Assembly: GCF_002897035.1 (NCBI RefSeq)
Contig: NZ_BAUX01000001.1
Coordinates: 124,001 to 188,000, forward strand
Reading direction: 5' to 3'
Source: Methylopila sp. Yamaguchi
Lineage (GTDB): Bacteria; Pseudomonadota; Alphaproteobacteria; Rhizobiales; Methylopilaceae
Length of the DNA stretch: 64,000 nt
Shown: positions 2,178 through 39,828 of the stretch, piece after piece
How positions within the stretch are numbered: position 1 is the first letter of the stretch
Layout of the letters: the number at the start of each line of letters is the position of its first letter
Notes under the pieces: model-generated
What the model was told of the DNA's origin: nothing
What the model saw: only the letters and a program-made list of their open reading frames with translations
Databases searched by the model: none
Made by a program: the position numbers and the translations under genes

Positions 2178-2270
2178 GTCATGCCCGCCTTCGCGGCCAT
2201 CCGCGACTTCCTCTCACGCCGGCGCTCGACGCCCAAGTCGTGGATACCCGCGCGAAGGCGCGGGCATGAC
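2178..2270. repeat. REP-like palindrome, unit 1
   Basis: An element with near-complementary ends: GTCATGCCCGCC at the left, GGCGCGGGCATGAC at the right, each containing its own small hairpin (CCCGC..GCGGG type), and inner arms CGACTT/AAGTCG. The left arm is slightly decayed compared with later copies. It is followed by a conserved tail with GGAAGGGCCAACCT at 2301-2314. Copies follow at 2681-3048 and one lies at 39739-39828. It sits just upstream of a GIY-YIG nuclease gene. Confidence 0.85.
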
Positions 2271-2370
2271 GATGGAAAGGCCTCGAATTCCGCGGGCGCC
2301 GGAAGGGCCAACCTTCGGCGAGCGCGGGCGCGCTCTTGCGTCCTGTCGGTTCCGTTCGCAGCATCGACGG

Positions 2371-2661
2371 ATGCGGTTTTCCTTCGTCTACCTCATGACC
2401 AACCGTCCGAACGGCGTGCTCTATTGCGGCGTGACGACCGACCTCGTCCGCCGCGTCGCCGAGCATCGCGGGGGCCTGCTCGCAGGCTTCACGAAGCGCT
2501 ATGGCCTGAAGACGCTGGTGTGGTTCGAGACCCATGCGGACGTCACGGCGGCGATCGCGCGCGAAAAGGCCCTCAAGCACGCGACGCGCGCAGAGAAGGT
2601 GCGCCTGATCCACGCGACGAACCCCGAGTGGCGGGATCTCTGGCCCGAGATTTCGCAGTGA
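2371..2661 (+). CDS. GIY-YIG superfamily nuclease (single domain)
   Basis: A 96-residue protein consisting of one GIY-YIG domain. Visible landmarks: FVYLMTN (residues 5-11, the GIY strand), VLYCGVT (16-22, the YIG strand with Cys in place of Ile), DLVRRVAEH with the conserved Arg (24-32), a Glu in REKALK (64-69) expected to bind the metal, and NPEW (84-87). It belongs to the small bacterial UPF0213/YhbQ-like group, whose substrates are poorly known. The Met at 2371 gives a domain-length protein; the upstream extension translates a repeat. REP-like palindromes flank it on both sides, with the same tail sequence before it as between later copies, which hints at a link between repeat and nuclease. 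Confidence 0.85.
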   Translation: MRFSFVYLMTNRPNGVLYCGVTTDLVRRVAEHRGGLLAGFTKRYGLKTLVWFETHADVTAAIAREKALKHATRAEKVRLIHATNPEWRDLWPEISQ

Positions 2662-2680
2662 TCCTTTAGACCGCCCTGAC

Positions 2681-3048
2681 GTCATGCCCGCCTTCGCGGG
2701 CATCCACGACTTCCTTCTGCCGTCGGGCTCTTCGCCCAAGTCGTGGATACCCGCGCAAGGGCGCGGGTATGACGATGGAATTGTCTCACTCTTTGCGAGG
2801 CCGGAAGGGCCAACCTCCCCGTCATGCCCGCCTTCGCGGGCGTCCACGACTTCTTCCACCCGCGCGCTCGACGCCCAAGTCGTGGATACCCGCGCGAAGG
2901 CGCGGGCATGACGATGGAAAGGCCTCACCTTCTGCGACGCCGGAAGGGCCAACCTCCCCGTCATGCCCGCCTTCGCGGGCGTCCACGACTTCTTCCACCC
3001 GCGCGCTCGACGCCAAAGTCGTGGATACCCGGCTGCGCCGGGCATGAC
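2681..3048. repeat. Tandem array of three REP-like palindromes
   Basis: Copies begin at 2681, 2821 and 2960 (spacing 140 and 139 bases) with GTCATGCCCGCCTTCGCGGG and close with a GGGCATGAC-type arm at about 2773, 2912 and 3048. Inner arms CCACGACTT and AAGTCGTGG are fully complementary. The first two copies are followed by the tail CCGGAAGGGCCAACCT, which also follows the copy upstream of the nuclease gene. The last copy is truncated on the right (CCCGGCTGCGCCGGGCATGAC). Each copy could fold as one long hairpin or as two small ones. The array fills the gap between the nuclease gene and the next gene; no coding is seen. Confidence 0.9.
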
Positions 3049-39738: not shown

Positions 39739-39828
39739 GTCATGCCCGGCGAAGCCGGGTATCCACGACTTCGCTGGGCGTAGCGCTTGACGTCCAAGTC
39801 GTGGATGCCCGCGAAGCGCGGGCATGAC
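39739..39828. repeat. REP-like palindrome, isolated copy
   Basis: Same family as the array at 2178-3048: GTCATGCCCGGCGAAGCCGGG at the left reads into TATCCACGACTT, and AAGTCGTGGATGCCCGCG then GCGGGCATGAC closes it. The internal loop differs from the array copies. It lies between the aldolase and reductase genes. Confidence 0.85.

Follow-up and report, generated by a model that had tools for sequence, protein, structure and literature searches.

A GIY-YIG nuclease gene set among CGTC-type REP palindromes in Methylopila: a candidate counterpart of RAYT-REP pairs with a different enzyme

The described systems closest to the locus analyzed here are the RAYT-REP pairs, or REPtrons, and the REPs of the CGTC class. 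In RAYT-REP pairs, which are IS200/IS605-like, a small gene for a REP-associated tyrosine transposase of the Y1/HUH type lies among REPs of its own that carry a GTAG tag; inverted dimers of these REPs are dispersed without the gene and the repeat type tracks the enzyme. Genomes free of the enzyme can stay rich in repeats: PMC8049555 reports that every genome of an E. coli strain collection, the RAYT-less ones included, has at least 69 REPINs. For the CGTC REPs, Di Nocera 2013 (PMC3733652) gives a chiefly alphaproteobacterial distribution, counts Neisseria dRS3 and Rickettsia RPE-4 and RPE-6 in the class, and states that these repeats "apparently lack a dedicated transposase" and are not associated with transposase genes. 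A link between GIY-YIG enzymes and REPs is reported in none of the matches listed in the open PMC literature. Term searches found no "palindrom-" word in the 2006 GIY-YIG survey (PMC1564403), and no word beginning "nuclease" or "GIY" in a 2025 survey of REPs (PMC12306157).

The window, by which we mean the whole 64,000-nucleotide stretch of the Methylopila sp. Yamaguchi genome that was analyzed, contains an array of four palindromes of 89–93 nt around a gene for a 96-residue GIY-YIG nuclease, one upstream and three downstream, within the region pointed out by the initial annotation. All features of the array are given on the forward strand. The gene runs from the ATG at 2371 to the stop codon ending at 2661. 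Upstream of it, dimer 0 (2178–2270) consists of two CGTC-type hairpins in opposite orientation with their tags outward, and is followed by a first copy of the tail GGAAGGGCCAACCT (2301–2314). Dimer 1 (2681–2773) begins 19 nt after the stop codon and is followed by the second tail (2803–2816); dimer 2 (2821–2912) is followed by the third (2942–2955), and dimer 3 (2960–3048) has no tail after it. The tail had been described before the gene and in three copies after it; there is indeed one copy before the gene, but two rather than three follow. Likewise, the 90-base palindrome of that description is present, not as one simple REP but as paired CGTC-type REP hairpins facing each other. All four palindromes read GTCATGCCCG...GGGYATGAC, and dimer 1 in full reads CGTCATGCCCG-hairpin-ATCCACGACTT ... 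AAGTCGTGGAT-hairpin-CGGGTATGACG, of which the other array dimers are variants. Over about 136 nt of palindrome plus tail, copies 0 and 1 share 117 identical columns and copies 0 and 2 share 125; the three downstream palindromes are spaced by 139–140 nt, and each of the four folds, as RNA, into one long hairpin of -47 to -59 kcal/mol. Five full dimers were found in the window, four of them within 0.9 kb around the nuclease gene; the fifth (39739–39828, no strand assigned) is a dispersed member of the same family far from that gene. In the 4.42-Mb genome (39 contigs), a 16-mer half-site has 38 matches with at most one mismatch (reversed control, 0), and a fuller REP pattern has 34.

These repeats show the features of CGTC REPs, namely a CGTC tag, a stem of 8–9 bp starting with AT and a CCA-like end, the copies of the genome reading CGTCATGCCCG..CGGGYATCCA; they are dispersed and mostly form head-to-head dimers. 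The tag, the AT stem base, the CCA-type end and the head-to-head dimers are those of the repeats in PMC3733652; no enzyme was found for them in that work, whereas a partner nuclease is proposed here. As in RAYT-REP pairs, a small enzyme gene is flanked by REPs of its own, inverted dimers are dispersed without the gene, the repeat type follows the enzyme, and enzyme-free genomes can be repeat-rich. On the other hand, the enzyme is a GIY-YIG nuclease and not a Y1/HUH transposase, the tag is CGTC (or belongs to the TGAGC..TCGAA class described below) and not GTAG, and the pair is found on plasmids, with as many as eleven copies in a single genome. The system of the window would be RAYT-REP-like in its working, but it is not a RAYT-REP member. 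The Y1_Tnp model PF01797, positive in 5 of 14 control genomes, matched nothing in the genome of the window; of the 17 other genomes of the family, 16 likewise gave no match. With GIY-YIG alone matched by Pfam, this agrees with the earlier proposal of a GIY-YIG enzyme in place of a Y1 transposase, and a RAYT explanation for the repeats of the window's genome was rejected on the empty search.

The window protein matches the Pfam GIY-YIG domain PF01541 (E 9.5e-13, 48.7 bits, cut-off 22.6), its sole Pfam domain, and no NCBIfam family scored above cut-off. Residues Y7, Y18, G20, R28, E65 and N84, which we take to be the catalytic ones, are invariant in a 22-sequence family alignment whose members are 43–84% identical to the window protein. 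Both the domain match and the conserved motif residues thus place it in the GIY-YIG superfamily, nucleases of which spread their own gene in other settings. Homing endonucleases of the I-TevI type belong to the same superfamily; they appear to differ from the present case, in which the gene is free-standing, encodes no further Pfam domain and is accompanied by many dispersed palindromes, its relatives lying at unrelated loci with no fixed allelic target seen. In the AlphaFold2 model (mean pLDDT 93.7), the predicted fold most resembles that of UPF0213 protein BH0048; next comes Slx1, which cuts branched DNA. UPF0213 (PDB 1zg2, BH0048; 1ywl, EF2693) is likewise a single GIY-YIG domain of about 90 residues and the closest solved fold. 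The initial annotation had named the gene UPF0213/YhbQ-like (E. coli YhbQ is presumably a UPF0213 member), and this label fits poorly. Indeed, the window protein scores 25.7 bits against BH0048 (E 1.1e-4), compared with 63.2 bits (E 1.7e-16) for L312, a relative unpaired with repeats; judged by such scores it is only a distant relative of UPF0213. The genome of the window carries a second homolog, 48% identical and on another contig, with a different palindrome (CTATAGGCTCCGG...) on both flanks by eye.

Inspection by eye of 23 homologs in the family placed most between copies of one palindrome, which changes between nuclease groups. The association was quantified by a flank test that scores whether a repeat occurs on both sides of the gene, each flank taken as 300 bp, and assumes no motif. 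It was applied to the best 80 of 588 confirmed places, which therefore lean towards the window's relatives and of which five had flanks too short to score. A score of at least 20 was reached by 58 of these 75 loci against 3 of 151 ordinary genes from the same contigs (ORF-defined, with at least 100 bp free of another long ORF on either side), and 61/75 exceeded the 99% point of 740 random placements on those contigs. The enrichment near nuclease genes relative to other genes, suggested earlier as a check, is strong in this best-80 set and is also seen in the wider sample below. In the same best 80 of 588, the density of CGTC-type hairpins is 5.14/kb within 150 bp of the gene and drops to 1.28/kb at 150–300 bp, 0.32 at 300–500 bp and 0.09–0.19 beyond 500 bp; within 500 bp, hairpins are detected on both sides of 41 loci, on one side of 19 and on neither side of 20. 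Several of the latter carry, by eye, looser repeats such as GTCATTGCGAG..GCAATCCA.

A wider sample of the class comprised 100 loci fetched from 125 places (81 of 98 with E<1e-25, 19 of 27 weaker). Left out were the two copies of the window's genome, fragments, and others including some near contig ends, and one of the 81 lacked enough flank to be scored. Here 50 of the 80 scored clade-1 loci lie above the 99% point of 500 placements and 30 fail. Among 16 failing loci inspected by eye, CGTC-like hairpins are visible on one or both sides of most, though not at L248 and L249. In eight named homologs from S. meliloti, A. lipoferum, N. gonorrhoeae, Planktothrix, Novosphingobium, Spirosoma, R. tumorigenes and Aeromonas, such palindromes were found by eye close to all eight and on both sides in seven, the R. 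tumorigenes homolog having them downstream only. The repeats around the N. gonorrhoeae homolog are of the CGTC-REP kind. We take them to be dRS3, given the published equation of dRS3 with this class.

Some of these loci have features of their own. At the Rhizobium tumorigenes locus (L309, 3282–4500), dimers of the S. meliloti kind (CCTCATTCCTGTGCTCGTCACAGGAATCCAG) occupy a long gap downstream of the nuclease. On plasmid p1 of Planktothrix agardhii (L306, 1489–1773), a clade-1 nuclease with GTCATTCTGAG repeats has an MmeI-type restriction gene on one side and, on the other, the drmA gene of a DISARM defence locus. Genome G140 holds eleven GIY-YIG copies (L173–L183), of which ten belong to clade 1 and the eleventh to clade 2. 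The PLSDB records NZ_CP119142, NZ_CP119140 and NZ_AP026896 (N. gonorrhoeae, Aeromonas caviae) are of chromosome size although filed as plasmids.

A tree of 25 randomly drawn clade-1 sequences plus that of the window with other superfamily members (row L320 having a long, unsafe branch) splits off clade 1 at 100/99, which sets it apart from UPF0213, to which it scores low. Seven genes group at 98/96 and are called UPF0213-like because one of them, L312, matches BH0048 as given above; the window protein falls outside this group. Clade 2 (alignment A2) surfaced among the weaker matches to the first profile, with the consensus YILRC-DGSYYVG ... RRPV ... KGWSRAKKEALI. It is the remainder on the UPF0213-like side, without a single branch of its own, and its profile is near BH0048 (7.9e-19). 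Clade-2 genes are flanked by a distinct palindrome, TGAGC..GTCGAA, and are nearer to UPF0213, the repeat-free UPF0213-like genes making up a third group. A text search of the literature for the type-2 repeat string returned no paper. One of the 19 weaker loci, L264, is UPF0213-like though first counted in clade 2, and its removal leaves the clade-2 figures at 12/18 in the flank test and 11/18 for the type-2 repeat. Type 1 repeats were found at 41 of 81 clade-1 loci and at 1 of 18 clade-2 loci (L264 removed), type 2 repeats at 7 of 81 and 11 of 18, respectively, with 7 and 12 of 300 random placements in this comparison; L318 and L319 are further clade-2 loci with the type-2 palindrome. The palindrome class that accompanies the nuclease differs between the two clades. 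The other GIY-YIG genes, the seven UPF0213-like and two divergent ones, are flanked in 0 of 9 cases (scores 8–12.5, control point 18). Taken as a whole, we hold the pairing of gene and palindrome to be well supported, with little room for doubt.

Within clade 1, similarity of the proteins is accompanied by similarity of the near flanks. For 166 of 182 loci tried (13,652 pairs, after removal of 43 syntenic pairs), the Spearman coefficient is 0.254 for near flanks and 0.060 for far flanks, and none of 500 permutations was as high. Between different genomes, a common repeat is found in 133 of 173 pairs with a protein similarity of at least 0.7 and in 58 of 3159 pairs below 0.5. Paralogs of the same genome have a common repeat in 6 of 91 pairs, and restricting the analysis to same-genome pairs leaves a weak correlation of 0.13 (p 0.20), because few such pairs are similar. 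Since similar nucleases share repeats across genomes and paralogs rarely do, the repeat is not simply the favourite REP of the host. The covariation of repeat type with nuclease clade that had been put forward as a check is observed, both in these pairs and in the clade-by-type counts. Local covariation may nonetheless mean that gene and flanks travel together, nothing more.

Two further explanations are disfavored by the random placements, the genes with intergenic flanks, the other GIY-YIG genes, the paralogs and the PF01797 search. It is improbable that the nuclease gene is passive cargo between REPs moved by a RAYT or another transposase: that gene-less dimers are commoner than gene-bearing ones and that nuclease-free, REP-rich genomes exist would be expected of cargo, but Y1_Tnp is absent as stated, CGTC repeats are reported in PMC3733652 to have no association with transposase genes, and cargo gives no reason for a single enzyme family whose repeats depend on its similarity. 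Still harder to credit is a general gathering of palindromes near recently acquired or weakly constrained genes. The nuclease gene does lie in intergenic space, where REPs are expected; against this stand the near absence of flanking repeats at ordinary and other GIY-YIG genes and the different repeats that most same-genome paralogs carry.

The arrangement of gene and hairpins is recurrent. Using a GTC[AG]T detector over 400 bp, hairpins were detected on both sides of 65 of 161 clade-1 loci, on one side of 43 and on neither side of 53. The commonest arrangement (31 of the 65 two-sided loci) is dimer-like, the gene lying between two hairpins with both tags outward. Taken over every hairpin detected, the median distance to the gene match is 42 bp on the upstream side and 24 bp on the downstream side. 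Dimers at other places are arranged alike, their loops having a median of 45 bp, and adjacent hairpin pairs in 80 related loci are +- in 71 cases, -+ in 35 and tandem in 5. Because of this shared layout, the gene-bearing form resembles a dimer with the gene placed in its loop; the locus in the window is the array form.

A case of presence and absence is found in Azospirillum. In A. lipoferum 4B, a REP dimer, the nuclease gene and a second REP dimer lie between sufB and sufC in a spacer of 617 bp, whereas the spacers of A. ramasamyi, A. oryzae and strain B510 measure 91, 87 and 129 bp and hold neither repeat nor gene, the suf flanks of 4B and the three relatives being 94.7–96.3% identical. In the 50 kb around suf, 4B has four such hairpins, all beside the nuclease, and the relatives have none. 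The 4B dimer occurs at 33 places in five 4B replicons and at no more than three in any other Azospirillum record (plasmid records and few chromosomes). In Shinella sp. PSBB067, the same sufB-sufC spacer is also occupied, by an independent copy with 42% identity to the query. Two lone dimers are also missing in relatives, that of L332/L334 from A. ramasamyi and that of L331 from A. ramasamyi and B510. As with insertion sequences and their MITEs, there is therefore a unit present or absent at a site, together with related gene-less copies. Neither the suf site nor the two lone dimers yielded a resolvable target-site duplication, their flanks being too diverged to fix the ends. The L332 dimer, on AZO_p6 of 4B, lies within a second, outer palindrome (CCGGCTCCATAGG .. 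CCTATGGACGGCCGG), and about 200 bp around it recur on AZO_p5 (L336) and AZO_p1; dimers may target other palindromes.

These sites also bear on the idea that the nuclease formerly spread the repeats and that the pairing is now decaying or otherwise used. Matches with internal stops (e.g. G186, G152 C14, G180 C3, L219, L208, L256) and nuclease genomes with few repeats of the searched pattern are what decay would leave. The invariant motif residues in the 22 relatives and the differences between species with such similar flanks speak against it, and we regard a relic as very improbable.

Genome-wide counts follow the nuclease as well, with kinship ignored throughout. Of the 54 genomes with a strong A1 match, 32 have six or more copies of the CGTC pattern, against 13 of the 126 without any A1 match (raw counts), and the median is 7.5 against 1 copy (Mann-Whitney p 5e-10); ten genomes whose A1 match is weaker (E 1e-10 to 1e-20) belong to neither group, and in both groups the pattern also catches some non-palindromic sequence, for example at most places in G199 and G200. 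In 13 of the 54 strong-match genomes the generic CGTC pattern occurs once or not at all; these perhaps carry other repeat types instead. For type 2, among the 190 genomes of the class, at least four copies of CCTTCGACRRGCTCAGG are found in 9 of 18 that have clade 2, in 2 of 46 that have only clade 1 and in 3 of 126 that lack both, the last two groups together giving 5/172; G139 has 19 copies and is free of clade 2. Repeat-rich genomes without a nuclease match at E<=1e-3 do exist: G008 (101 copies), of the same genus as the window genome, G110 (42), G122 (40), G111 (35), G161 (16), G176 (14), G068 (13), G028 (10) and others with 6–8 pattern matches, while G098 (52) and G154 (24) have weak or partial nuclease matches. 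The initial annotation had named such genomes as grounds against its proposal, and to this extent they are there. A tblastn search with both alignments at 30 loci, drawn from 183 pattern places in five nuclease-poor, REP-rich genomes, found no nuclease remains at E<=0.01. In the nuclease-poor G122, some CGTC hairpins recur at 305-bp intervals (C11), and at L361 type-2-like hairpins (CACCCTGAGGAGCGGAGCGTCTCGAAGG) accompany those of the CGTC type.

Repeat-rich genomes without a detectable nuclease would suit a surveillance role, in which the nuclease cuts extruded palindromes to the benefit of the host or in a self-limiting way, the palindromes serving regulation or linkage without being spread. 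The predicted fold match to Slx1 is consistent with it, as is PMC1839093, in which Caulobacter COG2827 genes are possible repair nucleases, one with an SOS box, the role of three being left open. However, a surveillance enzyme need not covary with the type of the flanking repeat, nor is a presence/absence unit joining nuclease and repeats needed, and genomes with the nuclease have more REPs, not fewer. We therefore consider surveillance unlikely, though it is the alternative to be taken most seriously.

The reading we prefer, to which we assign a probability of about 0.7, is that of a REP-nuclease mobile pair which acts like RAYT-REP with a different enzyme, the nuclease putatively cutting at the palindromes and dispersing them. 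The gene would be the enzyme half of the pair, the full element a short GIY-YIG gene between REP hairpins, and the dispersed 90-bp palindromes its version without the gene, comparable to a MITE or REPIN. The nuclease would recognize the hairpin of its own clade, as an extruded cruciform or as single strand at replication, and would nick or cut at its tagged end; copies would then spread on repair of the break or by capture of the released piece. GIY-YIG enzymes are not known to form a covalent transposition intermediate, and host repair would therefore have to complete the move. Of the interpretation first given for this locus, the enrichment, the covariation and the absence of a Y1 enzyme stand; the UPF0213/YhbQ label does not, and the seven UPF0213-like genes are unflanked.

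The data suggest that small GIY-YIG nucleases are the missing partners of a large bacterial repeat class. That they form a transposase-free mobile class, with at least two GIY-YIG clades each using its own hairpin and moving via host repair, from Proteobacteria to Cyanobacteria and Bacteroidota, seems to us slightly better than an even bet. If true, such a class would account for the orphan CGTC REPs, Neisseria dRS3 included, and for a second palindrome class of the TTCGACAAGCTCAGG type. A cognate nuclease makes the question of CGTC REPs without a transposase, as raised in PMC3733652, testable in the laboratory, and gives a candidate function to a widespread family, found at no fewer than 588 places, that is annotated merely as "GIY-YIG nuclease family protein". 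Moreover, if this reading is true, more than one enzyme chemistry has given rise to REP systems.
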